Assembly (NCBI GenBank): GCA_000723505.1
Contig: HG934468.1
Span: forward strand, 2,326,798-2,390,797
From: Mucinivorans hirudinis
GTDB taxonomy: Bacteria; Bacteroidota; Bacteroidia; Bacteroidales; Rikenellaceae
Length of the DNA stretch: 64,000 bases
Direction: 5' to 3'
The position numbers were made by a program, and so were the translations under genes. Each line of letters starts with the position of its first letter. The first letter of the stretch is position 1. This document shows, in pieces, positions 7,333 to 32,010 of this stretch. The notes under the pieces were generated by a model. It saw only the letters and a list, made by a program, of their open reading frames with translations, was not told where the DNA came from and did no database searches.

Positions 7333-7934
7333 CTAAGCGAGTGCGTCGTTACTTTCGGGATATGTGCATCAGTGCTATCTACCCCAAGCCTAACACCACG
7401 TGGCATAATAAGGAGCATAAGATATACCCCTATCTATTGCGAGGATTAACTATTGACAGGGTAAATCAGGTTTGGAGTACCGACATCACCTATATCCCAA
7501 TGAATGGAGGTTATATGTACCTGTGCGCCATCATTGATTGGCATTCACGCTTTGTGTTGGCTTGGGGGATAAGCAATACCCACGATAGCGAGTTCTGCCA
7601 AGAGTTGCTCAAAGAGGCTATTGCCAGATACGGCAAGCCGGAGATATTCAACACCGACCAAGGGAGTGAGTTCACGGCCAAGGAGTTCGTTAAGATACTT
7701 GAAGAAAATGAGATACAGATAAGTATGGACGGTAAAGGTAGGGCTTTGGATAATATTTTTGTCGAAAGGTTGTGGCGCAGCGTAAAATATGAGTATATTT
7801 ACCTGTCGAACCCCGGCAGCGGCAAAGAGTTATATGATGGCTTGACTGACTATTTTCGTCTTTACAACACCGAAAGGCTACATCAATCGCTTGAATACAA
7901 GACTCCGAGTGAGGTCTATATGACGGCGGCATAG
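7333..7934 (+). pseudogene. IS3-family OrfB, 3' fragment (DDE core)
   Basis: Carries the rve catalytic core of the split OrfB: VWSTDITYIPM with the first Asp, EIFNTDQGSEFTAKEF with the second, and NIFVERLWRSVKYEYIYL with the Glu (D,D35E pattern). The C-terminus is complete (YKTPSEVYMTAA). The frame runs from the CTAA duplication at 7333. It cannot be translated as part of OrfB while the inner IS is present. Confidence 0.85.
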
Positions 7935-13521: not shown

Positions 13522-13563
13522 ACGAAGGAATAGTATGAATTTTGAATTTTAATTTTATAGAAA

Positions 13564-15108
13564 ATGAAAAAGATATATTGTACAGTCTGTTTGCTTGTCG
13601 TTCTATGTATGGCGAGTGCGTGCGGGGACTTCTTTCTCGACAAGATGCCCGACAGACGAACAGAGCTTGACAGCAATCAGAAGATAAGGGATTTGTTAGT
13701 GTCAGCCTATCCAACTTCAGACCCAATGATGATCTACGAACACCGTACCGATAATGTTATGGACAACGGCAAGAAGTATGGCTCGGAAATGATTACGCTT
13801 TTCGAGAACTATCATTGGAAGGACATTAGCGACACTGGGAGTGATTCTCCCGAAGGTCTTTGGAGGGGCTGTTACGGAGCCATTGCTGCTGCCAACCAAG
13901 CTCTGGGTGCCATCCAGAGGATTGGTTCGAGCAAGGAAAATAATTCGGCAAAGGGTGAGGCGCTAATTTGTCGTGCCTATGCCCACTTTCTTCTGGCAAA
14001 TACATTCTGTATGCCCTATGTTGAGGCAACTGCAAAAACTGATATGGGTATACCGTATGTGGAAGAACCGGAGACGTTTGTCGGGAAAAAATATGAAAGG
14101 GGAACGGTCGAGTCTGTCTATGAAAAACTTGCTCGCGACATAGAAGAAGGCTTCCCTCTGATTGACGACAATGCCTATTCCGTACCCATTTATCATTTTA
14201 CCCGAAGGGCTGCAGCAGCTTTTGCGTGCCGCTTTTATCTCTTTTACGGTAAATATGAGCAGGCACTGAAATATGCCGATATGGCAATTGATGATGACCC
14301 GTCTGCCTCTTTGCGGGATATGATAAGCTATTCCGTATTGGTATCTAGAAAAGATATACATCATAAGTTCATTAGCAAGGACGAGCCTGCCAACCTGCTT
14401 TTAGTTGCTCTGTATTCGTTATGGGGACGGAATTATGGAGCAAGGAATGAACGCTATGGTAACTCGATCGAGATGGTTAGAAGGACACTGTATCAGTCTA
14501 CCGGACCTTGGGGTAGAGTGCTCCCCGGTTTCGATAAGCTCTTCGGTAGTGGTGTTAGTGTAGATCAGCCCAAATATGATTTAATATTTGAGTCGACAAA
14601 CGTACAAGCAGGAATAGGATTTGCACACGTTGTGCAGATGGCATTCACCGTTGATGAGACTCTGCTTTGTCGCGCCGAAGCGAAAGTAATGTTGAAAAGA
14701 TATGATGAGGCTGCCCGCGACCTATCTTTATATTATGTCAAAAAAGGTGGAAAAGCAGCGTCTGCCACCGAAATCGTAGAATATTACACCAAGCGCAGGG
14801 ATGCCGACCAAAAGGAGTTTGAGGGCGGGACACTAGCCCCTTGGCTGATGCTTGTAAAACCCTTCAATGCTCCGTTTGTAATCGAAAGCGGAACACAGGA
14901 GATGATGCTTCAGGCGGTACTCCACGTGCGTCGTATTGAGGATATATGGGGTGGATTGAGATGGTTGCATTTACGACGTTTCGGCATAGAAGTGGAACAT
15001 AACATTGATGAGGATAATTCCATAAAATTATCGGCGACAGACCTCAGACGAGTTATCCAGCTGCCAAAGTCGGTGATAAGTGCCGGATTACCGGCTAATC
15101 CTCGCTAG
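13564..15108 (+). CDS. SusD/RagB-family surface lipoprotein (514 aa)
   Basis: Ligand-capturing lid of the SusC channel, anchored by lipid at Cys20 (lipobox ASAC) and starting 42 bp after the SusC stop. N-terminal helices (GLWRGCYGAIAAANQALGAI, AHFLLANTFCMPYVEATAKT) are the TPR-like SusD fold, and ALICRAYAHF resembles the family signature. The C-terminal part lacks the tight sequence of glycan-type SusD proteins, in line with the divergent SusD members found beside HExxH lipoproteins. No carbohydrate-active enzyme lies in the operon. Confidence 0.9.
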   Translation: MKKIYCTVCLLVVLCMASACGDFFLDKMPDRRTELDSNQKIRDLLVSAYPTSDPMMIYEHRTDNVMDNGKKYGSEMITLFENYHWKDISDTGSDSPEGLWRGCYGAIAAANQALGAIQRIGSSKENNSAKGEALICRAYAHFLLANTFCMPYVEATAKTDMGIPYVEEPETFVGKKYERGTVESVYEKLARDIEEGFPLIDDNAYSVPIYHFTRRAAAAFACRFYLFYGKYEQALKYADMAIDDDPSASLRDMISYSVLVSRKDIHHKFISKDEPANLLLVALYSLWGRNYGARNERYGNSIEMVRRTLYQSTGPWGRVLPGFDKLFGSGVSVDQPKYDLIFESTNVQAGIGFAHVVQMAFTVDETLLCRAEAKVMLKRYDEAARDLSLYYVKKGGKAASATEIVEYYTKRRDADQKEFEGGTLAPWLMLVKPFNAPFVIESGTQEMMLQAVLHVRRIEDIWGGLRWLHLRRFGIEVEHNIDEDNSIKLSATDLRRVIQLPKSVISAGLPANPR

Positions 15109-15138
15109 AATTATTAATTAAGTAAAAAGTTTTAGACT

Positions 15139-16191
15139 ATGAACACCTTAAAATACTTATTGTGGGTGGGGGCAGCAGTGGTAACTCTATTCCCATCGTG
15201 CAAGGAAAAGGAACTGGACAAGACCGCGAGTGTCTTTGAGACCTCTTCCGAGCACAAGACTCCATTCGATAGTTGGCTTGAAGTCAACTATGTGCAGACG
15301 TATAATATGGACTATAAATATCGTATGGAAGATATTGAGGCAGATTATTCAAAGAATCTATCGCCTGCAGATGTTTTGCAAAGTATGCGACTTGCCAAGA
15401 TCATTAAGCACGCTTGGTTGGAGGCATATGTGGAGACGGCGGGCATAGATTTTATGCGAAGACACGCGCCGGCTATTTTGCACATTATTGGTTCGGCTTC
15501 GTGGAATAATGATGGAACTATGACTCTTGGCCAGGCTGAAGGGGGATTGAAGATAACACTATGTATGGTAAACTGGCTCGATGCCAAGGATATTCAAAAG
15601 ATGAACAGTTATTTCTTCAGAACTATGCACCACGAGTTTACTCACATTCTCCAGCAGGATGTTGACTATCCGCAGGAATATAATCTCATCAGTGCGAATG
15701 ACTATCGTCCTAATGCGTGGTTTAATTGGAAGACGACGCAAGATTATGCGTCATTAGGATTCATAAGTAGTTATGCCGGCAGTATGCCTGTTGAGGATAT
15801 AACGGAGGTTACGTGCTGTTTCGTCACTTTTACCGACGAGGAGTGGGATTCCGTATTTCTGGCAGCGGGTGAAGAAGGGCGAAAAAAGTTAAATCAGAAG
15901 GTTGCCATAATGAAGCAGTATATGCTGGAAGTGTGGAAAATTGATATGGACAAGTTAAGAAATGTTGTGCGACGAAGGATGGACGAGGTGGTGAGAATGG
16001 AGCTATTAGAACCCCAATGGTACACCACCCCCGTTAAAATGAAGGCGGTGTCTGATGCCGCCTTGCAACAACTAAGTCGCCAATTGCGCGAACAGTGGAA
16101 GGATGCGGCGGAGTATATGGATAGATGTCCTAACTGCTGCCACGTTCATAACGCAAGTTTGATAAACATTCTGCAACACGATAACAATTAA
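15139..16191 (+). CDS. Substrate import-associated zinc metallohydrolase lipoprotein (350 aa)
   Basis: Lipoprotein with Cys21 after a hydrophobic signal (TLFPSC). A zinc-binding HEFTH is at residues 165-169, with a plausible third ligand in the ITEVTCCFV segment downstream. This length, lipobox and HExxH, together with an adjacent SusC/SusD pair, match the family named for its link to TonB-dependent import. It probably sits at the outer membrane and trims or handles the imported ligand. The substrate is not known. It ends in CPNCCHVH, an unusual Cys/His-rich tail that could also bind metal. Two bases separate it from the next gene. Confidence 0.85.
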   Translation: MNTLKYLLWVGAAVVTLFPSCKEKELDKTASVFETSSEHKTPFDSWLEVNYVQTYNMDYKYRMEDIEADYSKNLSPADVLQSMRLAKIIKHAWLEAYVETAGIDFMRRHAPAILHIIGSASWNNDGTMTLGQAEGGLKITLCMVNWLDAKDIQKMNSYFFRTMHHEFTHILQQDVDYPQEYNLISANDYRPNAWFNWKTTQDYASLGFISSYAGSMPVEDITEVTCCFVTFTDEEWDSVFLAAGEEGRKKLNQKVAIMKQYMLEVWKIDMDKLRNVVRRRMDEVVRMELLEPQWYTTPVKMKAVSDAALQQLSRQLREQWKDAAEYMDRCPNCCHVHNASLINILQHDNN

Positions 16192-16193
16192 TT

Positions 16194-17465
16194 ATGATGA
16201 AAACAAAATTATATTTACAGCTTTTTTTGCTGTTTTGTTTATGTACCCTATCCTCCTGTTTGGCTGAGGTAGAGGACTATTTCGACACCCCGGCTTCAGC
16301 GCGGATGGAGAAAGAGATAGTGAAATATAGGGAACTGCTACCCTCTCCCAAATACGGATGGGCTATGGAGTATTATCCGGGTGGCGCTAATCAAGTGTAT
16401 GGAGGTTTTGCATTGGCAGTAACATTTTCCCCCAAGGGACAAGCCACATTCCAATCCTCTCTGTCGGACGACGTAAGTAAATCTTCGCAGAGCCTCTATT
16501 CGCTCAAAAAGGATATGGGGGCAACATTGAACTTCGACACATTCAATTCCATTTTCCACAACTTTTCCGATCCAGACTTAGCAGAAGGGCAGGGGAAAGG
16601 GAAAGGTTTTTTGGGTGACTACGAATTTATCCTGTACTCTTGCTCCGAATCGGAAATTCTGATGCGCGGGAAAAAACACGGTTCAGCCATTCGTATGTAT
16701 GCATTGCAACAGCCGGCGCAAGAGTATCTTGAAAAGGCTAAAAAGAACAGGGTAGGTTATGTGGATATGCCCGGTGTAAGCGGATTGGAGGGCACTTTTG
16801 CCGGAAAGCCCGTAAAGGGGACTGTAATATCAGCGCAATATTTTATGCTGACTCAAGAAGAGAATACAACAAAATTTTCGTTTATGTTCACCGACAAGGG
16901 TTGTAAACTCTATGCTCCCATAGTGCTCGGCGACCAAAAGGTAGAGGAGCTTATTTGGAAGGTCGACGAAAAAGTATTTGTCAGTCCCGACGGAAATACA
17001 CGTTTGTCATTGATTCTATCTCCCGGAGCTCACCTCGCCAAAGACTTTCTGGGAGAGTGGAAACTGAGTTATAGCGATGGGACGCGAGGTCCAAATAAGC
17101 AGGTGGACGTAAAAATCATTCTTGAGAATGGTTTATTTTTGATGAAGGGGCTGCCCTTCGATATAGTGTTGATTTATGACAATGTAAAGGGTGTTATGAG
17201 CATCAATCCACAGATGCTTTCCCAAGGCATCTTTCTAGCATCTCATGATACTTCTAGCGAACTGCTTCATTTTGATCTTAAGACACCCGGTCAGACGACG
17301 CGATGGGAGGAGAAAGGAGATGACATTGTATTGGAATTTGTACCGGAGCGGTTTGAAGGGAATAATTGGACTCACTTTGTTATTTGGGACGTGAAGAAAC
17401 GAGATATATACGAGGGGTACGGTCTATTTCTTCTCACGAATATGAAACTTACAAAAAAGAGATAG
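16194..17465 (+). CDS. DUF4302-family lipoprotein (423 aa)
   Basis: Signal peptide with lipobox ending at Cys22 (TLSSC), then MEKEIVKYRELLPSPKYGWA and YYPGGANQVYGGFALAVTFS, the usual opening of DUF4302 proteins. The mature protein is strand-rich and has no catalytic motif I can see. DUF4302 proteins regularly accompany the SusC/SusD/HExxH set, so it is probably a surface accessory that binds the same ligand. Start ATG at 16194 follows the previous stop by 2 bp; the next gene begins 12 bp after its stop. Exact function unknown. Confidence 0.85.
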   Translation: MMKTKLYLQLFLLFCLCTLSSCLAEVEDYFDTPASARMEKEIVKYRELLPSPKYGWAMEYYPGGANQVYGGFALAVTFSPKGQATFQSSLSDDVSKSSQSLYSLKKDMGATLNFDTFNSIFHNFSDPDLAEGQGKGKGFLGDYEFILYSCSESEILMRGKKHGSAIRMYALQQPAQEYLEKAKKNRVGYVDMPGVSGLEGTFAGKPVKGTVISAQYFMLTQEENTTKFSFMFTDKGCKLYAPIVLGDQKVEELIWKVDEKVFVSPDGNTRLSLILSPGAHLAKDFLGEWKLSYSDGTRGPNKQVDVKIILENGLFLMKGLPFDIVLIYDNVKGVMSINPQMLSQGIFLASHDTSSELLHFDLKTPGQTTRWEEKGDDIVLEFVPERFEGNNWTHFVIWDVKKRDIYEGYGLFLLTNMKLTKKR

Positions 17466-17477
17466 GAGGATAAAATT

Positions 17478-18539
17478 ATGCGAAAAAAAAATTATTTTTT
17501 ATTGATGCTTTTGATGGTCTTTTCCCTCTACTCGTGCAAAAAGGATGAGCAGGTGAAGGGAGATATTCCATTATTCAAAGTGGAAAAGACAGAAACCAAA
17601 ATAGACTACAATGGTGGTACTGTCCAAATAACCACAAATAAGGATGGCGTGCAAGCCACTGCGGCGGATTCCTGGATACAAGCTCAGGTAGAGGGCAAAG
17701 TTGTGCAACTGGTCGTTTCGGCAAACGATAGTTACGAGTCGAGAACCACGCTTGTTTCTCTTACCTATGGACAAGAGACCCAATCGGTGCCCATCACCCA
17801 GATGGGTGTCATTTCTATTGTAGATGTCCAATCATACGACTTTCCAATGAGCGGGGGACGAAAAGGATTCCTCTGGCAGACCGACCAAAAGTATGAAATA
17901 ACGGGTGTTGATGAATCTTGGCTCACTTATGAGATAAAGCAAGATTCGATATTCTTTACAGCAGCCCCCTTGGGTGATTCAGGTGACGCTCGTTCCAGTA
18001 AGGTCAATGTCAAGGTTGGGGCATTATACGACAAGGAGGTTGTTTTCCGACAACTTGGGCCTGCCATTCGGTACTCATTGATTCCGGGAAAATACTCACT
18101 CGAATATAAGAAAAAGTCCGGTGCTAAAGAAAAGGTTCTAAAAATGGATGTGAGTCTAGAGGAGAAAGAGAAGGATAAATCTTTCACCCTTAAGGGAGTC
18201 GGCTTGGATATCGAGGTTTTATATATTCCTGAACGTGGCATAGCCATTCGATCTCAAATTATTGATCCTTCTCAACTTATTGTGCTTTCTGTTTGGGACG
18301 GCTCGAATGAAAAAGCTTTTACTGCTATAATAAGTCTGGTGAGTGACTTTTCAAGAGATAAAGACAATGCCGTGTTTACGATGGTGTCTAGTGGCGTTAC
18401 CGATCCGAAATGGGTTGATGGCGCCGTTGCTAAGGGAATATTGATATCATCAATTCTCGGCGGCGAGAAAGGAGCTGAAAAATTGGTTAAGAGCACCAGA
18501 CTTGTCGATATGAAATTTACTAAGAAGCCCGGTATCTAA
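17478..18539 (+). CDS. BACON-domain lipoprotein (353 aa)
   Basis: Lipoprotein (Cys20, FSLYSC) whose residues ~35-110 form a BACON-type beta-sandwich: TKIDYNGGTVQITTNKDGV, ADSWIQAQVEG, ESRTTLVSLTYGQETQSVPI. A second, more divergent copy may cover ~112-195 (ESWLTYEIKQDS). The C-terminal ~150 residues are unassigned beta structure. BACON domains act as ligand or mucin-binding modules or as spacers that hold other domains off the surface. Last gene of the five-gene operon; a strong stem-loop follows 140 bp downstream. Confidence 0.8.
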   Translation: MRKKNYFLLMLLMVFSLYSCKKDEQVKGDIPLFKVEKTETKIDYNGGTVQITTNKDGVQATAADSWIQAQVEGKVVQLVVSANDSYESRTTLVSLTYGQETQSVPITQMGVISIVDVQSYDFPMSGGRKGFLWQTDQKYEITGVDESWLTYEIKQDSIFFTAAPLGDSGDARSSKVNVKVGALYDKEVVFRQLGPAIRYSLIPGKYSLEYKKKSGAKEKVLKMDVSLEEKEKDKSFTLKGVGLDIEVLYIPERGIAIRSQIIDPSQLIVLSVWDGSNEKAFTAIISLVSDFSRDKDNAVFTMVSSGVTDPKWVDGAVAKGILISSILGGEKGAEKLVKSTRLVDMKFTKKPGI

Positions 18540-18680
18540 GGGTAGTTTTTCAGCCGTTACCCCGGGTAAGGGGGATGTTGTTTTCCTCAGCTGTCGTTTC
18601 CGTATATTGGTATAAATGTAATTCCAAAAATCATCTGTAATCCAAAACCACACCACTGTGCGGGGATGACAAGAATATCT

Positions 18681-18713
18681 AAGCGAACCACTGACAAAGT
18701 CAGTGGTTCGCTT
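18681..18713 (+). terminator. Stem-loop ending the first SusC operon
   Basis: A 15-bp perfect stem (AAGCGAACCACTGAC and its inverse) closes a 3-base loop. No U-run follows on the plus strand, so the terminator reading rests on stem strength and position after the last operon gene. Confidence 0.7.
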
Positions 18714-19011
18714 GTGTGCTGTGATAGTTCGCCAAGAAGTTAATAGCCAAGGTTATTAAGTTCGTGTTGCTCATCGATAAATCTTTCCAACATTGATCCG
18801 AGCAAATCTATTTGCCCTCTCTCAGGTAATTTTCTAACGACAGTTTGCATATTTTTATATCACCACGAAAAAGCCCTTCTGATTATACGAGATAAAATAT
18901 GCGATAATACATTAATAATTAAAATTATAAATTATTTTTAGGGAGAGACTAGTTACTTTTCCGATAAATAATAAAAATTAATTACCGAGATGCTATTTAT
19001 GTATACTTTTA

Positions 19012-19041
19012 TTGTTTTTTAATAAAAATTTAATATCTTTG
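19012..19041 (+). promoter_or_regulatory. Bacteroidota housekeeping promoter
   Basis: TTG at 19012-19014, 19-base gap, TATCTTTG at 19034-19041: exact match to the -33/-7 pattern. It lies in strongly AT-rich DNA and predicts a leader of about 175 nt before the SusC gene at 19223. Confidence 0.85.
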
Positions 19042-19222
19042 CCCCGACACATCAAGGCAATATTGTAATTCGGCGGCTAAAATGTTTTGCATAATTCACA
19101 CTATGTAAAATAGATTTCAGAGTCTCTGAAAAAGGTAAATTAAACTTAGGTATTATCTGACATTCAAATTATTACATCTTCTCAAATCTAGACCTTAATT
19201 ATTAACTAATAAAAACAAAGGA

Positions 19223-22200
19223 ATGAAGAAAGTTCAACTTTTTCTCGTTATGTTGTTTGTAAGTTGCTTGACTGTTGCGGCTCAAAATTTGACCGTAACC
19301 GGCAAAGTGACCTATGCAGATGACGGCTCTCCGGTTATCGGAGCAACTATTTCGGTGAAGGGCACAAACGTTGCCGTTCTTTCGGACGTAAACGGTGCTT
19401 ACAAAATCACCATCCCTACCAGCACACAGCTTAAGGTTCTTGAGTTCTCCTTTACCGGTTTGCAAACCAAGGAGGTGTCTGTTTCGCAAAGCGGAAACAT
19501 TGATGTATCTTTGGCAGCCGATACGCGAGCTCTCGAAGAAGTGGTTGTTACAGGTTACGGTTCTTTCTCCAAGAGAGACTATACCGGATCGGCGGCAACC
19601 GTATCCACCTCGCGCACAAAAGACGTGCCTTCGGTTTCTGTTCAAAGTCGCATTGCAGGTGCAATTCCCGGTGTTCAGATTACATCCACATCGGGTCAGC
19701 CCGGAGCGGTTGAGTCTGTTCGTATTCGCGGTATGGGTTCTATCAACGCTGGTAATGAGCCTCTTTACGTTGTGGACGGTGTACCCGTATTTACAGGTAA
19801 CGCCAATAACTTCGGTTATGCTGTGGCGGGTAATAGTATCCTCTCTACAATCAACCCTAACGATATTGAAAATATCACTGTAATAAAAGATGCGGCGGCG
19901 GCTTCACTTTACGGTTCGCGTGCAGCAAACGGTGTTATTATCATTACCACCAAAAAGGGTAAATCAGGTAAAACCACTTTCAATTCCAAAGCAAGTTATG
20001 GTGTAACAAGTATGGCGGAAAATTGGAGACCTGTTTTGGGCGGCGAAGAGACTCGCACTTTGTGGCATCTTGCACTCAAAAACTACGGGCAATACACAGC
20101 CGGTATGTCGGAGACTGCCGCTATCAAACTTGCTGACGACGAAATTGACGGATTCTACACTAAACCTTGGAGCGGATGGACAAATTGGAGAGACTATCTA
20201 TTGAAAACAGGTAAGGCTCAACAATATGAAGTTTCAGCATCGGGCGGTAACGAGAAAACTCGTTTCTTCTCTTCTCTTTCGTATTCAGATATGGAGGGTA
20301 TAACCTTGCGTTCGGATTACAAACGTATTACAGGTCGTGCGAATGTTTCTCACACGGCAGGTAGATTTACGCTCGAAGCAGGCACTATGTTCTCTAACAC
20401 TAATCAAGATGTAGACTCGGAAGGAACCTCATATTCAAGCCCGATGATGGCAATCGCAATTGCGCTTTCACCTGCCGACTATCCTTACAACCCTGATGGA
20501 AGCATAAACATTACCGAAGGTTTCCCATTCCCGGGTAATCCGTTGGCAAACCCGTTGCAATCTGCCGAGTACAACTACAATACAAGTACCGTGAACAGAA
20601 CAATGACCAATGTCAGCGGAAAATTGGATATTGCAGACGGTTTGGCTATCAAGCAGGTTCTCAGTTATGACCTCATCGCATCAAACAACCGTGTTTGGTG
20701 GGACCCACGCTCGAATGACGGTAAGACGGCAGGAGGTGTATACCAAAAATATTGGTACAACCGCTCGACTCTTACGTCTCAATCTCAGATTATGTATAAC
20801 AAGACCTTTGCCTCGAAACACAACGTGGCAGTGCTTGGCTCATTCGAGGTTGAAAATTATAATTTGGACTACGTGAGTGCTAACGGTCAAAACTACCCAA
20901 CCTATTTACTTCCCGAAGTAAGTAATGCGGGTACAAAGAGTGGTGGTAGTGGCCAATCAGGGTACTCTATGATGTCCTACCTTGTGGATGCTAACTATAA
21001 CTACGATAACAAATACTACGGTAAAATCAGTTTTCGTCGCGATGGATCTTCTCGCCTGGCGAAAGAAAATCGCTGGGGTAACTTCTGGGCGGCATCTGCA
21101 TCTTGGAAAATATCCGAAGAGGATTTCTTCAGAAGCGGCTCTGTATCTAACGTGGTAAACGACCTTAAAATACGTGCATCTTATGGTGTGAATGGTACTC
21201 AACCAGCAGGATATTATGACTTTATGGGATTGTTTGGCTACGGATACAACTATAATGGTGCTCCGGGCTCTGCCGAAGCTCAAATGCCTAACCCACAACT
21301 GACCTGGGAGAGCAACGTAGCTTCTAACATCGGTTTGGACTTCACTTTATTCAATAAAGTGTTCGTAACATTCGACATCTACCAACGTGATACAAAAGAT
21401 TTGATACTTGGTAAACCAATCTCAACTGTTACCGGTTTCGGTTCAATTGCCACTAACATTGGTTCGTTGCGCAATAAAGGTATGGAGTTGGATGTCAAAT
21501 TCTTGGCACTCTCTAACGCCGATTTCTACTGGAATATAGGACTGAACTTGGCTAACAATACCAATACTGTTATTGCATTGGCAGACGGTCAAAAAGAGAT
21601 TCAAGAGGGTCGTTGGACACACCGTTTGAATAACCCTTACTATGCGTTCAACCTATTTGAATTTGCGGGAGTAGACCCTGCAACAGGTAGAGAACAATAC
21701 TACACAAACACTCCTAAAAAGGTCAATGAAGATTTTGAGATAATAGACCGTACAATCACAACCGATGCTACGAAAGTAAATAAGGCTATTGTTGGTCGTT
21801 GGGATCCCGTTATCCAAGGCGGTATCACAAATAACTTCAACTGGAAGAACTTAGACCTCGGATTTACACTTACCTACTCTTTGGGTGGTCAGTGTGTGGA
21901 CAATATGGCGGTAAACTATACTAACGGTGCGAGCTGGGCTCAGGACGGTGTCTCAATACCTACTTATAACGACATTAACAAAATGTGGAAAAAACCGGGT
22001 GATATTGCAGAGCTTCCTATGTACGCTTACGGCGGTAGTGTAAACAACTATACCTCGACTCGTTTCCTAATGTCTACCGACCACCTTCGTATGAAGAATA
22101 TTACGTTAGGTTACTCGTTGCCAAAGAGCATCTTATCAAAAATCAAATTTGAGAAGATTCGCTTCTACGCATCAGCTAACAACCTCTTTACAATCAAGGA

Positions 22201-22303
22201 TAAAAATATGTATCTTGACCCTGAGACTCCAATCGGTGGTTCGGTTTCTTTTGAAACTCCTCAGTTGCGTACTGTTACATTTGGTATCGAGCTTGGCTTC
22301 TAA
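19223..22303 (+). CDS. SusC/RagA-family TonB-dependent receptor (1026 aa)
   Basis: Outer-membrane importer with signal peptide 1-21 (SCLTVAAQ), carboxypeptidase-regulatory-like domain (LTVTGKVTYADDGSPVIGAT), TonB-box segment EEVVVTGYG near residue 110, plug ending YGSRAANGVIIITTKKG, and a barrel closing with VTFGIELGF. No STN domain. It is preceded by a well-formed promoter and paired with a SusD gene 13 bp downstream; no enzyme genes follow, so this is a bare uptake pair. Clean codon pattern and a strong promoter suggest high expression, as with abundant RagA/B-type peptide importers, but the ligand cannot be read from sequence. Confidence 0.95.
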   Translation: MKKVQLFLVMLFVSCLTVAAQNLTVTGKVTYADDGSPVIGATISVKGTNVAVLSDVNGAYKITIPTSTQLKVLEFSFTGLQTKEVSVSQSGNIDVSLAADTRALEEVVVTGYGSFSKRDYTGSAATVSTSRTKDVPSVSVQSRIAGAIPGVQITSTSGQPGAVESVRIRGMGSINAGNEPLYVVDGVPVFTGNANNFGYAVAGNSILSTINPNDIENITVIKDAAAASLYGSRAANGVIIITTKKGKSGKTTFNSKASYGVTSMAENWRPVLGGEETRTLWHLALKNYGQYTAGMSETAAIKLADDEIDGFYTKPWSGWTNWRDYLLKTGKAQQYEVSASGGNEKTRFFSSLSYSDMEGITLRSDYKRITGRANVSHTAGRFTLEAGTMFSNTNQDVDSEGTSYSSPMMAIAIALSPADYPYNPDGSINITEGFPFPGNPLANPLQSAEYNYNTSTVNRTMTNVSGKLDIADGLAIKQVLSYDLIASNNRVWWDPRSNDGKTAGGVYQKYWYNRSTLTSQSQIMYNKTFASKHNVAVLGSFEVENYNLDYVSANGQNYPTYLLPEVSNAGTKSGGSGQSGYSMMSYLVDANYNYDNKYYGKISFRRDGSSRLAKENRWGNFWAASASWKISEEDFFRSGSVSNVVNDLKIRASYGVNGTQPAGYYDFMGLFGYGYNYNGAPGSAEAQMPNPQLTWESNVASNIGLDFTLFNKVFVTFDIYQRDTKDLILGKPISTVTGFGSIATNIGSLRNKGMELDVKFLALSNADFYWNIGLNLANNTNTVIALADGQKEIQEGRWTHRLNNPYYAFNLFEFAGVDPATGREQYYTNTPKKVNEDFEIIDRTITTDATKVNKAIVGRWDPVIQGGITNNFNWKNLDLGFTLTYSLGGQCVDNMAVNYTNGASWAQDGVSIPTYNDINKMWKKPGDIAELPMYAYGGSVNNYTSTRFLMSTDHLRMKNITLGYSLPKSILSKIKFEKIRFYASANNLFTIKDKNMYLDPETPIGGSVSFETPQLRTVTFGIELGF

Positions 22304-23846: not shown

Positions 23847-24107
23847 ATGACACTTACGGATGGCTCTATGGCAAGTGTTCGGAAAGAGTGGGCTAGAGAG
23901 ACTATAGGTCAAGGCTTCCGTTTGGACTGCTTCAAACGTTGGAATGTAGGTTTCTCGGGACGTGTTCCACAAAACAATTTGACAGTACAGATTAACGAAA
24001 ATTTCACTGGTAAAGTCGCCCCTGCCGGATATTTCTACTTTACGTGGGCAATTCCTAAGGATGATATTGCTGTGAATGATAATCTTGTTCAAAACACAGG
24101 TTGGTAG
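23847..24107 (+). pseudogene. SusD C-terminal remnant (86 codons)
   Basis: The frame aligns only with the last part of SusD proteins. ETIGQGFRLDCFKRWNVGF corresponds to the ELIGEGHRMYDLMRN block of the upstream SusD, and FYFTWAIPKDDIAVNDNLVQ corresponds to its FRVRYAIPQNELNTNKNTTQ end. There is no signal peptide or lipobox, and the front ~400 residues are missing. It divergently matches the upstream gene, so it is the end of a different SusD gene, not a copy of this one. Bracketed by two stem-loops, it looks like the scar of a deletion or gene replacement. Confidence 0.8.
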
Positions 24108-24129
24108 AATACTATTCTCAAATGCAATA

Positions 24130-24209: not shown

Positions 24210-25412
24210 TCAGAAGGTGTACTCCTGCCAAGTAATATCCGGAGAGTGGCTGGAGGATAAACTGCCGGCTACCACATCGTGTCCGTTTCCGGTGACATCT
24301 TTCATTAGTGAGCCTTTACCCTCGTTCATCGGCAGGTAGAAAATCAGCTCAGGATGGGTGTATTCCACCTCAGATTTCATAAACTTTCTTATTTGGTTGC
24401 CGCTACGTGTCACCTTCCAAAAGCGTACCTGTGCAAGTTCGCAGTAGTCGGGGAAGTATTGTGTTCCCGATGAAATCATCGCAAATTTGTCGATTAACAT
24501 TTCCTGTCCTGCCGGCGTCTTGAGTGTGGCAACCACCTCACCATTCTTGTAGAGGAGTGTAGCGCCTTGTTGAGAATCGTAGGTGATGGCAAAATGAATC
24601 CATTCGCCGGGATTGAGCCCCTTGCCTTGGTCGGGGTGTCCGGTGTCAAACTGAGAGCCGAATGCTTTCATTTGCAAGAAATTATACACATATTTTTTCT
24701 GTTTCTGACTGTGGTGAATCAAGTCTCCAAATCTCACATAAAACTCCGTCGAGGCACTACCCGAGTTGAAAAGAGCCTGATTGTTCTTAGTATATCCGCC
24801 GTCGCCGCGGGATGATGTAACCCGACTCCACCACTCCAAAGTGTAGTTCTTGAGCGACATATTCCAATTTTCGAACGGCTTTACCTTCATCCCGTTCTTA
24901 CCGGTAAACTTGGGAGTGTGTTGTCTTAATGGCGCTTTTAGCGTTAGGACAATGGATGAAGATGATTCGGATTGCTCAACACTTCCCGCAATGGATGCAA
25001 TGCGTAGCGGAATGGCGTACTGAACTCCCGGCTCGGGCTTAAACTTCTTTATTTCTACGGCTATCGGAAGAGCCGCAACCTCACCTGCCTTGATGGTGGC
25101 TTGAGCCGTAAAGGTGAAGTCCTCTTTTTTGGGCAGTTTGAACTTGCTTTCATTCTTCTTGTTATATGCTTCCAACACCTCTTCGTCCACCACTATGTCC
25201 ACAACGATGTCTTCGCCAATGGATTTAGCCATACGTACAATCAGAGAGGAGTGTGTCGCACCACCGCTTTGCAGAGCCACATCCACCGATTTTGCTCGGG
25301 AAGCTTCGTTGAAGTAGACGAGATTGTCAATCGTCTTTCTTTGAGCATCTTGGCACGAGGCGAGCGCCACAAGAGCCACGATGCCTATAAGTGATTTTAT
25401 TTTCATTGTCAT
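24210..25412 (-). CDS. DUF1735 + LamG-like surface lipoprotein (400 aa)
   Basis: ATG at 25412 (another at 25406) with lipobox VALASC. Residues ~25-150 match the DUF1735 fold found at the N-terminus of Sus-linked surface proteins (VYFNEASRAKSVDVALQSGG, YAIPLRIASIAG). Residues ~185-395 are a LamG/concanavalin-like sandwich (YTLEWWSRVTSS, EWIHFAITYDSQQGATLLYK, LAQVRFWKVTRSGNQIRKFM, ELIFYLPMNEGKG). This is a carbohydrate-binding architecture seen in the SusE/F position. Last gene of the riboswitch-led operon; the previous stop lies 3 bp from this ATG. Likely a surface glycan-binding protein. Confidence 0.88.
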   Translation of the reverse strand: MTMKIKSLIGIVALVALASCQDAQRKTIDNLVYFNEASRAKSVDVALQSGGATHSSLIVRMAKSIGEDIVVDIVVDEEVLEAYNKKNESKFKLPKKEDFTFTAQATIKAGEVAALPIAVEIKKFKPEPGVQYAIPLRIASIAGSVEQSESSSSIVLTLKAPLRQHTPKFTGKNGMKVKPFENWNMSLKNYTLEWWSRVTSSRGDGGYTKNNQALFNSGSASTEFYVRFGDLIHHSQKQKKYVYNFLQMKAFGSQFDTGHPDQGKGLNPGEWIHFAITYDSQQGATLLYKNGEVVATLKTPAGQEMLIDKFAMISSGTQYFPDYCELAQVRFWKVTRSGNQIRKFMKSEVEYTHPELIFYLPMNEGKGSLMKDVTGNGHDVVAGSLSSSHSPDITWQEYTF

Positions 25413-25415
25413 CAA

Positions 25416-26432
25416 CTATTTTTTAGGTTTTGTATTTTGTATTAATATGCCCTCACGTACGTATGGATAATCCGGATTACCCGGATAGTCATACTCGATG
25501 TGGTATGCCCCGATGCCGGCGTGTTCGATGCCGAATGAGGGGCGATAGGTCTGTAGCCCTTTGAATTTTGGTTTGTCTATTGCCCTCTCGAAGGTTGCCG
25601 TGAGGATAGATTTCTTTACCACCTCTTCCCAAAGCCCCTCCTCTTTCGGGTAATAGCGCTTGAGACTGAGAAACATATTGTCCAACGAGCCGTGGCTGCC
25701 GCATATGTCGTAGGACTGCCAGATAATGTAGTCCAGACTTCTCAATACTTTGGGGGTGAATATTTGGTAGTATTGATTCCAGCCTGCCGGAATGTCGGCA
25801 ATGAGCATACGCCCTTTTTTGTCGAACTCCTCGCGCAGGGTCGTCATAAATGCGTCTAAGCGTTCGGGGCGACTGAAATTTATCAACGTACCGGTCAGCT
25901 CCATATCAATGTCGAATCCGTCTACATTATATTTCTCACAGGAGTCGGCTATTGCCATAGCATACTTCTTCGATGCCTGTATGTAGCTCTCCTCCTTTTG
26001 ATCCTTGTATCCCCAAAATTCGGCAACATCCGTTACTCCTTCGGGAGTACAAAATTTTCCTATGTCGTTGCTGGTAAAACAGTACACCGCTCGCGAGCCC
26101 TTTTCCTGAAACTCCTTCAAATCCTCTTGCTGTGCGGGCGTTAGCTTACCCATTTGCAGCCACAGGCTCACAAAGTCCACACTATCGGGCAGTCCCATCA
26201 GAGAGTACTGCATCGAGCCACCCTTGCCCACCCAGTTGCCGAACCAACCGAACATAACTTTATGGGGTGATTCGAAGTACTCTTTCAGATTTTTTCTGTA
26301 TTGCTCTGTGGGAGCAACAAAGAAGTCTTTGGCTTGAGCATCTGTCCATTTCTCACAGGAGGTCATCAGAAAGGTTTGCAGGAAGAATAGTGTCGTCAAA
26401 CCTATATATATACATTTATTATTCTTTTTCAT
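25416..26432 (-). CDS. GH18-family glycosidase lipoprotein (338 aa)
   Basis: Lipoprotein with Cys26 (FLMTSC). The family 18 motif DGFDIDME is at residues 171-178, with all three acidic positions of DxxDxDxE kept, so it should be catalytic by the substrate-assisted mechanism. Other barrel strands visible are KVMFGWFGNWV, GSRAVYCFTS, RMLIADIPAGW and LDYIIWQSYDI. Small surface GH18 lipoproteins in Sus operons (for example BT1044 of B. thetaiotaomicron) are endo-beta-N-acetylglucosaminidases acting on the chitobiose core of N-glycans; that activity is inferred here. Third gene of the SusC-SusD-GH18-LamG operon. Confidence 0.88.
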   Translation of the reverse strand: MKKNNKCIYIGLTTLFFLQTFLMTSCEKWTDAQAKDFFVAPTEQYRKNLKEYFESPHKVMFGWFGNWVGKGGSMQYSLMGLPDSVDFVSLWLQMGKLTPAQQEDLKEFQEKGSRAVYCFTSNDIGKFCTPEGVTDVAEFWGYKDQKEESYIQASKKYAMAIADSCEKYNVDGFDIDMELTGTLINFSRPERLDAFMTTLREEFDKKGRMLIADIPAGWNQYYQIFTPKVLRSLDYIIWQSYDICGSHGSLDNMFLSLKRYYPKEEGLWEEVVKKSILTATFERAIDKPKFKGLQTYRPSFGIEHAGIGAYHIEYDYPGNPDYPYVREGILIQNTKPKK

Positions 26433-26449
26433 AACCGTTTTTTATTACA

Positions 26450-28024
26450 TTAATTTTTCTTTGCCCACCATAATTCGGTTGTGCCCTTGTCGGCACCTCC
26501 CAAAAGCACAAGGGCGGCATCATAGTTTTTTCGATTGGTGTTTCTCTCCGATTCGGGGTAGGGTAGGCGTCTCATCCCCCTTTCCGAACTTACTCCTTCG
26601 CTGCTCAGGTTGTTCACGATGGGGAAGCGTTTGGGATACCCCGTGCGGCGAAAATCGACCCATGCCTCCCATCCGTTAGGAAATGACGCTAACCACTTTT
26701 GAATCATAATGCGCTCCAGATTCTCTTCAATCTGTGCAGACTCGTTATATTTTGGGCAAACTTTTGTTACGGCGTCGGCATTGTGAAGAGGGTTTATCGG
26801 GTCTTTGTAGCTGGCGGGCGTCTTTGCGCTCTTCAGGTAGTTACCAATGGTTGCACCTCTCTCAGACATTGAAATTTCAACACCCTTTTCGTAATATTCC
26901 CTAGCATTGCCCTTGCCCCATCTCAGAGCATATTCCGCCCTTAGGAAGTATGCCTCGGCAGCCGACATTACTAGCTGCTTGTCATCTTGTCCTATTCGTG
27001 GTTTCGCCCATTTTTGGTATGCTGCGAAAGTTCCCTGGGACTGTTTGATTCCGTTGCGTACGCCTGCATAACCTGTACTTCCGTTTTCGGGTTCATTGAT
27101 ATACTTGGTAAGACGCGGGTCTTCATACCCTTGTAGGTAAGAAGATAGGTTGGCGCTGACCACACATTCGCCGCCGTTCCACGTGTAGGCAGAGCGGTAG
27201 AATGGGTTCATCCCGTCGTTGAATGAGCTCCACGCCGCGTCACCTGTCTCGGTCATCACGCCGATTGTGTGAGTGAGAGCCTCTTCGCCTTTTTGCTGTG
27301 CCAATTCCGGTTTGACGTTGGCAAGGCGCATTGCCATACGTAGTTTGAGGGTATTGGCAAACTTCACCCAACGTTTGAAATCACCTTGATAAAAATAGTC
27401 AAAGTCCTTCAAAGAGGTGAAATCCTCGCCCGCGCTAACAGATATGCTTATAACGTCAATCGCCTCTTGTAGGTCGCTAAACATTTGATTGTAAAGCTCC
27501 TCCATACTATCATAGCTGGATGTGAGATTCTCCTTCGATACTTTGGAGTAGGGAATGGGTCCATACGTGTCGCTGAGTTTGAGTGAGCCTGCCACCCGCA
27601 TTATTTGCGCCCAAGCATATACAATGCCTTTGCCCCCGGTCTCTTCCTTTATTTTGAAGAAAGAGGTGTAGATTTGACTCATTATTTTCTCGAATGTTAT
27701 GCCTATCCATCCGATTCTTGGGTTGTAGGTGTAAAAATTCCCGCTGTTGCCCCAAGGGTTCACACAGCTGATGTAACCACCATACTCCGACGCCACCATT
27801 TGTTCGATTATCTGCGAATCATTTTGATGCCCTTGCACCAATACGGGTGAGATTCCTTTAATCTTCTCTCCCATCAACACATTGTCTCCCAACATTTGCT
27901 CGGGAGTGAGTGCTGTGGGGTTTCTGTTATATTCTTCAAAGTTCTGGGTGCAGCTTGTTTGAAAACAGGTGGTTATTGCACAAAATATGGCAAAGGTATA
28001 TTGTTTAAGTTTATGGGTATTCAT
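26450..28024 (-). CDS. SusD-like lipoprotein, SusD_2-type (524 aa)
   Basis: The frame opens at 28057, but ATG 28024 (MNTHKLKQYTFAIF) is chosen because it places the signal peptide at the N-terminus with lipobox FQTSC (Cys25). The mature start TQNFEEYNRNPTALTPEQML is typical of the SusD-like 2 group. Helical TPR-like body (WAQIMRVAGSLKLSDTYGPI, AAEAYFLRAEYALRWGKG) and C-terminal IMIQKWLASFPNGWEAWVDF are family blocks. Lid for the SusC channel that ends 13 bp upstream. Confidence 0.92.
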   Translation of the reverse strand: MNTHKLKQYTFAIFCAITTCFQTSCTQNFEEYNRNPTALTPEQMLGDNVLMGEKIKGISPVLVQGHQNDSQIIEQMVASEYGGYISCVNPWGNSGNFYTYNPRIGWIGITFEKIMSQIYTSFFKIKEETGGKGIVYAWAQIMRVAGSLKLSDTYGPIPYSKVSKENLTSSYDSMEELYNQMFSDLQEAIDVISISVSAGEDFTSLKDFDYFYQGDFKRWVKFANTLKLRMAMRLANVKPELAQQKGEEALTHTIGVMTETGDAAWSSFNDGMNPFYRSAYTWNGGECVVSANLSSYLQGYEDPRLTKYINEPENGSTGYAGVRNGIKQSQGTFAAYQKWAKPRIGQDDKQLVMSAAEAYFLRAEYALRWGKGNAREYYEKGVEISMSERGATIGNYLKSAKTPASYKDPINPLHNADAVTKVCPKYNESAQIEENLERIMIQKWLASFPNGWEAWVDFRRTGYPKRFPIVNNLSSEGVSSERGMRRLPYPESERNTNRKNYDAALVLLGGADKGTTELWWAKKN

Positions 28025-28037
28025 ATCCTTTGGTTTG

Positions 28038-31000
28038 TTAGAAAGAAAGTTTAACATTAAATCCGTAACTTCTTAGGCTCGGTTGTTGGAAAAAGTCTAC
28101 GCCCTGGTAGAAGTTGCCTGACACGGATGGGGTAACCTCGGGGTCGTAGGGAGCTTTGCAATATATCATCCAGAGATTCTTTCCCGTCAGGGAGAGGGTT
28201 AGGTCGAGTTTGTCGTTGAACCATTTTCTGGGCACACGGTAGCTTAGACTCAATTCCGCCAGTCGGATGTTGGTGGCATCGTACAGGTAGTATGTGCCGA
28301 TAGCCGAGGAGGTGGTCTCGTAATAGTTCTGCGCACTTGTCTTACTTGTGCCCACCATCACTCCGCCGTTGTCTCGAGCATCGGCTGATGCCTGCGACAC
28401 GCCGTATCTGTCCAGAAATGCCTGAGTATTCGACAAGACCAAACCGCCGAAACGTCCGGTAAAGGTGAAACCTAAATTGATGCCATTCCACTCCACATTT
28501 GAGTTCCACCCCAGATTGAACTTCGGAAGCAGCGTGCCGGCACTTATGTAGTCAATCTTTTCGACTTGCAAATTTCCGTTTTCATCTTTCCAAATGTATC
28601 CGTTGGGTGATTGGCGCAGGCGTTGATTGATGTATAAGTCACCCATTGTTCCACCTTCTGTCAGTCGAATGGTAGGTCCGCTTTCCGCACCCAATGTGCC
28701 CATCGGGAGGTAATCCATCTCAATGGTTTCACCCGTGAGAAGGTTGGTGGCTCCGTTTGCCAACTGTACTATTTTGTTCTCGTTGAGGGTGTAATTCAAC
28801 CCCGTCGAAACTTTGAACTGGCCATAGGTATCCGTATATCGCAAACCCAGTTCGATACCTTGGTTCTGTACGTTTCCTGCCTGAACGGTGTTTTTCTTAT
28901 ATCCGGAAGAGCTGGATGCTTCAATGTCGAATACTTGATTGTATGTGTTGGAGCGATATAGTGTTAAGTCCAAACCTATACGGCTCTCAAAAAACCTCAT
29001 ATTGATACCCACCTCATACGATTTGGTGTCCTCCGGTACAAGGTATGGGTTGAAGCGTGTGTCGGGCAGTCGGTAATTTTTGGTCTGTTCGTTGTAGTAG
29101 TATTGTTCCAAAGTTCTGTAGCGACCGGGAGCCATCCCCACATTGGCATAAGAACCGCGAATCTTTAAGTAACTTATGGCTTTGGGCATTTGCATCATTT
29201 CGCTAATTATCAATGACAAACCCACCGAGGGATAGAAGAACGAGGTCTTGGCGGTGTATGCCAATTTCGAGCTCCACTCATTGCGTCCTGTCAGGGTTAG
29301 GTAAATCATACGCTGCCACCCTAATTCGGCACTAGCAAAGATAGCTTGGTCTTGGTCGTGCCAAACACCTTCGTTGGTCTTGGAGGTTGCCGCAGCTATG
29401 TTGCCATAGTGGAAGTGGTTGGGTACGGTCTGCAAGCCGCCGTTCATATAGGCGCTGTTGCTTCTTCTGTCGTCAATTGAAGCACCGACGACGGCAGTGA
29501 CGTTCAATTTATCGCCAAAGAAGTTTTTGTTAATGTTTGCAATTACATCCCCATATAGAGACGAATCGTCCGCTTTGGAGTGGTAGTAGTAACCCTTTGG
29601 GCTACCCTCGGTAAAGGTGGTACTTGTGCTGGCATAGAATCTGTCGTAGGTGTCGAAATTGGAGTTGTCTACCCTCACCCGTGCGGCAAGGTTCAGCCAG
29701 TTGGTTATGTTGTATTTCAAGCTGGTGTTAAAAACATAGCGTTTCTTATGGAGATTATTTGCCATTCGGTGGAGCATCCAATAGGGGTTTTGCATACCGA
29801 GTTCGGTTCCAAAAATGGAGTTAGGCCAATATTGTGTCATAATATTACGTGCCGTGTTGTAACGCTCAAACATTTGAACTTCCTGAAAATTCTCTCCTCG
29901 GGGGAACAGATAGAGAGAGACTAACGGATTGAAATGTTGTCCTCCGCTTATCATATTCTCGTTGTTCTGAATGACATATTGTGCGCTCACATCCAGAATC
30001 ATTTTGTCTTGGAGAAATTTACTGGTATTTCTGATAGAGAAGTTGTACCGGTTGTAGGTGTTGGTGGGGATGATGCCGGTGGTGTTGGTGGCAGCAACCG
30101 AGGCGTAGGTTTGGTTTTGGTCTGTTCCGGTTGTGAATGTTATGCTGTTGATTAGGTTCAGACCCGTGTTGAAGAAATCTCTCGGGTTGAAATTACTTGG
30201 AGTCTGAAGCCGTGCTCCCCAACTGCCCATTACCCCATCGTTGTTGCCATAGGTATTTTGGAACTTAGGCATCATCAATGGATCGGAAAAAGATGTGCTA
30301 TTGCTGTAAGTGAGCCTTGCTTTACCGGCTTTGCCCGATTTGGTCGTAATCAGTACAACGCCGTTGGCTGCTGCCGAACCATAGAGGGCTGCGGCGGAAG
30401 CTCCCGTCAGCACCGATATGCTCTCTATATCCTCCGGATTGATGTCTGCCACGCTACTCGAGCCCGGTTGTTTGGAGAGAGTGCCTACCTGCGTTGCTCC
30501 GGTGTTGATGTTTGTCATTGGTATACCGTCAATTACGTAGAGGGCGTTGTTGTCTTTTGTCAGCGATTTGTTGCCCCGCATAACCACACGCGTTCCCGCA
30601 CCTGCTCCCGCTGCCGAGGCGTTGATGGTTACACCTGCCACCCTGCCGTTTAGACTGTTAACAAAGTTTGTCTCTTTCACCGTAGTGAGGGCGTCGTTAT
30701 CCACCTTTTGCACATTGTAGCTCAATGCCTTTTCTGAGCGCCGAATGCCGAGTGCAGTAACCACAACCTCTCCCAGTGCTCTGGCATCCTCTGCCAGTGT
30801 CAGTTCAAGGGGTTGGTTATCCATCACACTATGCTCGCTTGTGACGCAACCCACGTAGGAGACTTGGAGTATGTCGCCACGTTGCACCTCCAGTGCGAAG
30901 TTGCCGTAGACATCCGTTATGGTGGCATTATTGCTCCCTTTTACCACTATGCTTGCTCCTATGAGCGGTTCGCCGTTGGTATCTGTTACCCTGCCGGTGG

Positions 31001-31334
31001 CTGTGATCCGACTGTCCATTTTGCTGATAATTATTTGTCCATCAACAATGGAGTAGCTGAGATTGCTGTTTTTGAAAAGTTGGTCAAAAACGTCGGAGAG
31101 TGATTTATTGGTGACGTTGAGGGTCACCGAGCGGTTGGTGTTAATGTCGTCGATGCTGTAGACCACTGGCATCGAAATCTGTTTTTCTATCTCTTTCAAC
31201 ACTGTACCAAGGGAGACATTTCTACCTTTGAGAGTGAGCAGGCGCTCCTGTGCTCGCACAGAGGTCACCATAGAAAACAGACAGAAAGATAGCAAGCAGA
31301 AGAGCTTGCGACTCATAGAAATTTTTCGTTTCAT
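28038..31334 (-). CDS. SusC-family TonB-dependent receptor with STN domain (1098 aa)
   Basis: First gene of the riboswitch operon. Signal peptide ~1-28 (ending VRAQ), STN (secretin/TonB short N-terminal) domain ~35-105 (NVSLGTVLKEIEKQISMPVV, SLSDVFDQLFKNSNLSYSIV), carboxypeptidase-regulatory-like domain ~112-190, TonB-box-like GEVVVTALG, plug ending YGSAAANGVVLITTKSG, then a barrel ending SYGFNVKLSF. An STN domain normally contacts a FecR-type anti-sigma factor, but no sigma/anti-sigma pair lies here. Instead the leader carries a cobalamin riboswitch. Imports the product captured by the SusD partner; ligand unknown. Confidence 0.93.
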   Translation of the reverse strand: MKRKISMSRKLFCLLSFCLFSMVTSVRAQERLLTLKGRNVSLGTVLKEIEKQISMPVVYSIDDINTNRSVTLNVTNKSLSDVFDQLFKNSNLSYSIVDGQIIISKMDSRITATGRVTDTNGEPLIGASIVVKGSNNATITDVYGNFALEVQRGDILQVSYVGCVTSEHSVMDNQPLELTLAEDARALGEVVVTALGIRRSEKALSYNVQKVDNDALTTVKETNFVNSLNGRVAGVTINASAAGAGAGTRVVMRGNKSLTKDNNALYVIDGIPMTNINTGATQVGTLSKQPGSSSVADINPEDIESISVLTGASAAALYGSAAANGVVLITTKSGKAGKARLTYSNSTSFSDPLMMPKFQNTYGNNDGVMGSWGARLQTPSNFNPRDFFNTGLNLINSITFTTGTDQNQTYASVAATNTTGIIPTNTYNRYNFSIRNTSKFLQDKMILDVSAQYVIQNNENMISGGQHFNPLVSLYLFPRGENFQEVQMFERYNTARNIMTQYWPNSIFGTELGMQNPYWMLHRMANNLHKKRYVFNTSLKYNITNWLNLAARVRVDNSNFDTYDRFYASTSTTFTEGSPKGYYYHSKADDSSLYGDVIANINKNFFGDKLNVTAVVGASIDDRRSNSAYMNGGLQTVPNHFHYGNIAAATSKTNEGVWHDQDQAIFASAELGWQRMIYLTLTGRNEWSSKLAYTAKTSFFYPSVGLSLIISEMMQMPKAISYLKIRGSYANVGMAPGRYRTLEQYYYNEQTKNYRLPDTRFNPYLVPEDTKSYEVGINMRFFESRIGLDLTLYRSNTYNQVFDIEASSSSGYKKNTVQAGNVQNQGIELGLRYTDTYGQFKVSTGLNYTLNENKIVQLANGATNLLTGETIEMDYLPMGTLGAESGPTIRLTEGGTMGDLYINQRLRQSPNGYIWKDENGNLQVEKIDYISAGTLLPKFNLGWNSNVEWNGINLGFTFTGRFGGLVLSNTQAFLDRYGVSQASADARDNGGVMVGTSKTSAQNYYETTSSAIGTYYLYDATNIRLAELSLSYRVPRKWFNDKLDLTLSLTGKNLWMIYCKAPYDPEVTPSVSGNFYQGVDFFQQPSLRSYGFNVKLSF

Positions 31335-31513
31335 ACGTCATTAATTAAGGTTCTTTGATAAATTTGAAAATATGCAAAAAAAAGTAAGGGTCAGTATACA
31401 AAAAAAATACGTCGAATGTAGAAACGATACCTAAAAAATATCCGATAAATTGTGTGTACAGCAGAAACGAGGTGTCTTCAAAGCTCCATTCCGCGGAAGC
31501 CTTAAATTTTATA

Positions 31514-31678
31514 ATCCATTGGCAGGTCTTCCGGCTTGTTCCCGTTCCGAGCATAGCAAGGTGCAGTGGCATATAGGATATTGCCCAAACGTTGTGTAGG
31601 ATTTACAGCAGCGAGCCTGCGCAGGATTCTAGCCTGATTCCCCAATTATTCAGACACAATAAAAAGTATGCCTGAATT
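31514..31678 (-). promoter_or_regulatory. Cobalamin (AdoCbl) riboswitch
   Basis: Minus strand, 5' to 3': TTCAGGCATAC at the start with CTGAA closing the first arm; GGGGAATCAGG then GAATCCTGCGCAGG; CTCGCTGCTGTAA; ATGCCACTG opening the next stem and ACGGGAA closing it; and the hallmark AAGCCGGAAGACCTGCC at the end (31517-31533). Order and spacing match the B12 riboswitch core (GGGAA..GAATCC..CGCTGCTGTAA..GCCACTG..GGAAGACCTGCC). It lies 180 bp upstream of the SusC start at 31334, same strand, with nothing between. Expected effect: B12 lowers expression of the four-gene operon. Confidence 0.94.
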
Positions 31679-31688
31679 AATGATGTTG

Positions 31689-31718
31689 CGAAGGTATTGA
31701 AATTATCTGAAATTCCAA
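31689..31718 (-). promoter_or_regulatory. Promoter of the riboswitch-led SusC operon
   Basis: On the minus strand TTG (31718-31716), 19-base gap, TACCTTCG (31696-31689), one base off TAnnTTTG. The expected start falls near 31683, just before the riboswitch begins. Confidence 0.7.
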
Positions 31719-31785
31719 AAATTTTTTAATAATAATTCTTAAATAGATTTATTATCAAAGCCCAATTGCATTAAATACGTTAATA

Positions 31786-31827
31786 ATAAACCGATATCAG
31801 CATAAAGAAATGCTAATATCGGTTTAT
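31786..31827 (-). terminator. Stem-loop, likely end of the ndk transcript
   Basis: ATAAACCGATAT...AGCAT pairs with ATGCT...ATATCGGTTTAT: 12 + 5 base pairs with one mismatch and a 6-base loop. It separates the minus-strand ndk side from the riboswitch promoter. Confidence 0.6.
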
Positions 31828-31839
31828 GGATGGTTTTTC

Positions 31840-32010
31840 CAATGGAAATAGATTATGATGCTCCGCTATAAACTTGTTTAATTTATTGATATTTAGCACG
31901 CCCCGTGCTTGAAGCGGGGTCTTAGCAGAGAGAAAACTGCTGGCACTAAACTATGCAGAGCCTCTTCGGCAAGTTCTTTGTGACACGAACTAAGAAGTTA
32001 CACTGAAGCA
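31840..32010. other. Hairpin-rich non-coding block
   Basis: Contains CCCCG/CGGGG (31901-31919), AGCAG/CTGCT (31924-31941), GCC/GGC (31960-31970) and AGTTC/GAACT (31972-31991) hairpins in a row. On the minus strand a startless frame ends FPLEKPSINRY at the terminator. It could be a small structured RNA or a dispersed repeat or gene remnant; I cannot assign it. Confidence 0.35.

Follow-up and report, generated by a model that had tools for sequence, protein, structure and literature searches.

A derived copy of the btuB cobalamin riboswitch upstream of a SusC/SusD-GH18 operon in Mucinivorans hirudinis

Studies of the btuB riboswitch from E. coli, together with crystal structures, have placed J11/10 against J6/3 in the ligand core and ascribed adenosylcobalamin (AdoCbl) specificity to the peripheral arm (PMC5359240). 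Among N-glycan utilisation systems, complex-type N-glycans have been associated with GH18 proteins of the PF16141 family, and an ECF-sigma/anti-sigma pair of its own accompanies each of two high-mannose N-glycan loci (PMC11180146). Mucinivorans hirudinis M3T belongs to the Rikenellaceae, lives in symbiosis with the medicinal leech and has cobalamin biosynthesis genes (PMC4319616). Here we analyzed a stretch of 64,000 nucleotides (the window) from its genome, which comprises 3,149,227 bases in one contig. In this window a leader derived from a cobalamin riboswitch stands before an operon of the SusC/SusD-GH18 type; no description of a B12 riboswitch on a PUL was found in the literature searched. 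We consider it moderately probable that the promoter-riboswitch cassette of btuB was displaced onto a complex-N-glycan operon and that its B12 sensing was weakened, lost or altered in the process.

Position, promoter and origin of the riboswitch copy

A covariance-model search placed an RF00174 match on the minus strand of the window at 31504-31696. The match is complete, spanning model positions 1 to 189, and scores 47 bits (E 1.2e-8) against a gathering cut-off of 31.5; RF00174 was the sole RNA family matched within the window in the Rfam search. A sequence-only reading made before this work had proposed this check, having described a B12 riboswitch with a full core and its own promoter before the SusC/SusD-GH18 operon. 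The position is real, whereas the full core is not, as GGGAAGG is deleted. The promoter was also correctly recognized. It is of the Bacteroidota type (31689-31719, minus strand), with a -33 TTTG at 31719-31716, a 19-nt spacer and a -7 box TACCTTCG at 31696-31689. In a promoter scan of 31335-31900 this TTTG-N19-TACCTTCG arrangement was the top site, its 9 points corresponding to the 95th percentile of shuffles, and its -7 box shares a column with the -7 boxes of other riboswitches in a 125-row alignment. Downstream of the leader the scan gave only weak promoter matches, none of which beat shuffles, and a scan of the leader found no intrinsic terminator. Transcription of the operon may start at this promoter.

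The closest relative of the window leader lies in the same genome. In a 253-nt pairwise alignment that extends from the -7 region and includes P13, the leader is 72% identical to the btuB riboswitch (L032:12490-12740), and a DNA search of 41 genomes returned this riboswitch as the only full-length match besides the leader itself. We take the window leader to be a duplicate. The btuB gene under riboswitch control is the only clear btuB gene of the genome. Six cobalamin riboswitches are present in total, of which the window copy is the weakest, the other five scoring 88-108 bits. The first genes after these five, named by eye from sequence, are an anaerobic-type ribonucleotide reductase, a small membrane protein, btuB together with a btuG-like gene, a cobO-like gene and a btuG-like gene. 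At L032:5594-12364 (minus strand), the riboswitch-controlled btuB and btuG-like gene precede a pair of related lipoproteins, 521 and 590 aa long, which may be B12-uptake surface proteins. We also sought an ancestral site in a same-genus contig and in two other genomes of the family that have the NDK gene. These share no other gene of the neighbourhood, and therefore the ancestral site is not readable and a loss of btuB at this spot in relatives is not traceable.

Lost and retained parts of the aptamer

Pairwise alignment revealed a shortfall of 18 nt in the P10-P11 arm of the window copy (site 31551-31563, minus strand), which removes the 3′ strand of P11, J11/10 and the 3′ strand of P10. The conserved class I motif GGGAAGG, comprising J11/10 and the P10 3′ strand, is thereby deleted. 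Each of its 7 columns is kept in 97-100% of the 124 other Bacteroidales riboswitches sampled, a set that leans canonical because it was drawn from score-ranked lists. A search of 393 genomes for short-armed riboswitches, defined by a distance of 6-32 bases between GCCACTG and the B12 box, gave 20 matches; GGGAAGG is present in 19 of them, and the window copy alone lacks it. When columns at least 90% conserved were considered in the alignment of 125 Bacteroidales riboswitches (59 columns), the window copy was off consensus at 15, with GGGAAGG accounting for 7 of these, while the median was 0 and the next worst sequence had 8. Other departures contradict the full core of the sequence-only reading as well: two inner P1 pairs are broken (GG to AA), and J2/3 and L5 are altered. 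The B12 box AAGCCGGAAGACCTGCC is present with one A-to-G change, which is also found in the riboswitches of three other genomes.

GCCACTG and most of the B12 box are retained. Downstream of the aptamer, at 31480-31503 (minus strand), the window copy keeps a P13-type hairpin of 24 nt (AAGGCUUC-CGCGGAAU-GGAGCUUU), a putative expression platform that is also present in the btuB copy; many Bacteroidales riboswitches carry it as GCUUU-CGRGGAA-AAGAGC or in a similar form. One P13 pair has undergone a compensatory change from U-A to C-G; as this pair is U-A across Bacteroidales riboswitches, the double change most likely occurred on the window copy. In P1, P2, P5, P6 and P13, 32 of 35 pairs still form, compared with 27.2 expected from random substitutions (p 0.007), although part of this retention may reflect constraint on the btuB copy. 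This test used hand-drawn stems and compared the window copy with the btuB copy, the null being the same number of random substitutions. Taken together, the retained stems and the compensatory P13 change suggest some selection on the RNA.

Alternatively, the riboswitch copy may be undergoing pure neutral decay. The off-consensus rate is 15% at conserved sites, no different from half the divergence at the remaining sites (19%), but the retained stems and the compensatory change in P13 speak against simple decay. The data thus point partly to decay and partly to a derived form that still works.

The N-glycan cassette and its relatives

Downstream of the riboswitch, the genes on the minus strand are ordered SusC, SusD, GH18 and BT_3987-N/LamG. 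The first (28038-31334) encodes a SusC-type TonB-dependent transporter of 1098 aa with an STN domain (TIGR04056, 664.6 bits; STN PF07660); its nearest solved homologue is BT_2264, and it does not resemble BtuB more than SusC. The second (26450-28057) is a SusD-like surface lipoprotein of 535 aa (PF12741, 516.5 bits), closest to SusD homologues in the PDB (E about 1e-91), one of which is chitin-binding. The third (25416-26432) is a BT1044-like lipoprotein of the GH18 endo-beta-N-acetylglucosaminidase type (PF16141, 145 bits, cut-off 28.7). It matches BT1044 (6q64) by sequence with an E of 1.1e-44, and its AlphaFold model (pLDDT 87) also has 6q64 as its best PDB match (E 5.9e-23, TM 0.73-0.75), a TIM barrel. 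The catalytic DxxDxDxE motif is intact as DGFDIDME, and all 19 aligned sequences share D176 and E178. The fourth (24210-25415) is a lipoprotein with BT_3987-N (DUF1735, PF08522) and LamG/concanavalin-like (PF13385) domains, which occupies the same place in orthologous cassettes and is probably glycan binding. Profiles and alignment thus agree with the gene content and the DGFDIDME motif as originally read. A profile search of the operon proteins found no B12-binding protein. Judged from its sequences, the cassette of proteins is that of a usual N-glycan utilisation locus, and its substrate would be complex N-glycans.

Orthologues of the four-gene cassette occur in 22 other Bacteroidales records. 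RF00174 was found in none of these; the sequence before SusC covers 700 nt or more in 17 of them. The survey of relatives proposed in the sequence-only reading produced no second riboswitch-SusC pairing. Within the family of M. hirudinis, no other genome among 200 sampled has the cassette GH18 at E 1e-60, and when 18 cassette SusCs were placed in a tree with two outgroup SusCs, the window protein formed a branch of its own. An inherited pairing of riboswitch and cassette was considered and rejected, given the orthologous records and a survey of 125 downstream genes in which no further SusC turned up. That survey did include a TonB receptor with a carboxypeptidase-like domain (L134), at only 41 bits. 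Bacteroides sp. GM023 has two tandem SusC-SusD-GH18-LamG cassettes (L010:1-12219, plus strand), one of them orthologous to the window cassette and the other more distant, with a GH18 37% identical to that of the window.

The orthologous cassette of Mediterranea (L011) has, as in the window, a full-length STN-SusC (1503 bits), SusD, GH18 (58% identity) and LamG. Unlike the window, an ECF sigma and FecR precede its STN-SusC and there is no riboswitch. No FecR match (PF04773) was found in the M. hirudinis genome, and its sole FecR_C (PF16344) match is the STN of the window SusC. As the STN is retained in a genome with no FecR match, this SusC keeps a signalling domain without a partner.

Several other features were observed in the window. 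Between two convergent operons, a stretch at 23850-24110 on the plus strand (...GQGFRLDCFKRWN...) looks by eye like a leftover SusD C-terminus, and may have survived from a larger or rearranged PUL. Two further SusC/SusD pairs lie at 10180-22303 (plus strand). The pair with SusC at 10180-13521 is followed by a metallopeptidase-looking HEFTHILQQD protein, while a BACON-domain protein precedes the pair with SusC at 19223-22303. Transposase-like reading frames are found in the same window as the operons, at 1670-2802 and 5267-7934.

Operon control and comparison with known systems

We propose that the btuB riboswitch, in M. hirudinis itself or in a close ancestor, was the source of a promoter-aptamer-P13 cassette that is now placed before a complex-N-glycan utilisation operon, which appears to have lost the ECF-sigma/FecR control for which its STN-type SusC was built. 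The copy would supply a promoter and a structured leader. Because loss of J11/10-P10 should weaken, abolish or broaden AdoCbl sensing, operon expression would probably be constitutive, or weakly repressed by corrinoids. The RF00174 score above the gathering cut-off, the 32 of 35 pairs kept and the compensatory change in P13 count against this proposal. In addition, class II B12-binding riboswitches without this peripheral arm exist, and loss of GGGAAGG need therefore not abolish binding.

The same features would favor a fully working riboswitch, in which corrinoid turns the operon off and B12 shortage turns on N-glycan harvest. The RF00174 match is over threshold, the promoter and P13 are kept, and the stems are conserved beyond random expectation, with a derived compensatory P13 pair. 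However, we regard this as rather unlikely given the loss of a near-universal motif, the two broken inner P1 pairs, the altered J2/3 and L5 and the absence of the pairing from relatives, owing to which cross-species selection for it cannot be shown. That B12 shortage turns the operon on, as claimed in the sequence-only reading, is not established, because the aptamer lacks a motif kept by at least 97% of the 124 comparison riboswitches and by all 19 of the other short-armed copies.

It is unlikely, if conceivable, that a B12 riboswitch captured in place of ECF-sigma/FecR became, on losing its arm, a corrinoid-sensing variant that ties blood-protein glycan foraging to B12. The chances seem poor that the RNA is a variant with other corrinoid selectivity (class-II-like, for methyl- or hydroxo-cobalamin) and would regulate the operon in that way. 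AdoCbl specificity has been attributed to the very arm that is lost (PMC5359240), and the remaining structure is mostly retained, but the variant is in no relative and is confined to a single genome.

Two functional ideas of the sequence-only reading find no support. Stripping of N-glycans from haptocorrin, intrinsic factor or transcobalamin, with release of B12, would fit a BT1044-like ENGase in a symbiont whose leech host lives on vertebrate blood and the glycoproteins in it; it is nevertheless very improbable, as the cassette is widespread in Bacteroidales without a riboswitch or any other B12 link, the operon has no B12-binding protein, and the nearest structures are glycan proteins. Import of corrinoids by the SusC/SusD pair, for which only the upstream riboswitch homologue speaks, is hardly credible for a TIGR04056 SusC nearest to BT_2264 and a SusD whose nearest SusD homologues include a chitin-binding one, in a genome with a separate riboswitch-controlled BtuB/BtuG.

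Returning to the displaced btuB cassette, the duplicate has been caught while its btuB sister copy remains in the same genome. The case lets one ask whether riboswitches spread as promoter-aptamer-platform cassettes, and what effect a natural loss of J11/10 has on B12 sensing. If the riboswitch works, vitamin status would be linked to host-glycan harvest in a blood-fed symbiosis.

Compared with the class I Bacteroidota btuB riboswitch (RF00174), the window copy is alike in descent, promoter position, most stems, GCCACTG and P13, but differs in lacking GGGAAGG and in its altered J2/3, L5 and inner P1. Class I riboswitches of Bacteroidota precede btuB, btuG, nrd, cob or similar genes, whereas the window copy precedes SusC and is the only one before SusC/SusD among the 125 Bacteroidota cobalamin riboswitches sampled. 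With the BT1044-type complex-N-glycan loci of Bacteroides, the operon shares the SusC-SusD-GH18-LamG order, the catalytic motif and the predicted fold (6q64); in place of the adjacent ECF-sigma/FecR pair of those loci, it has a riboswitch-derived leader.
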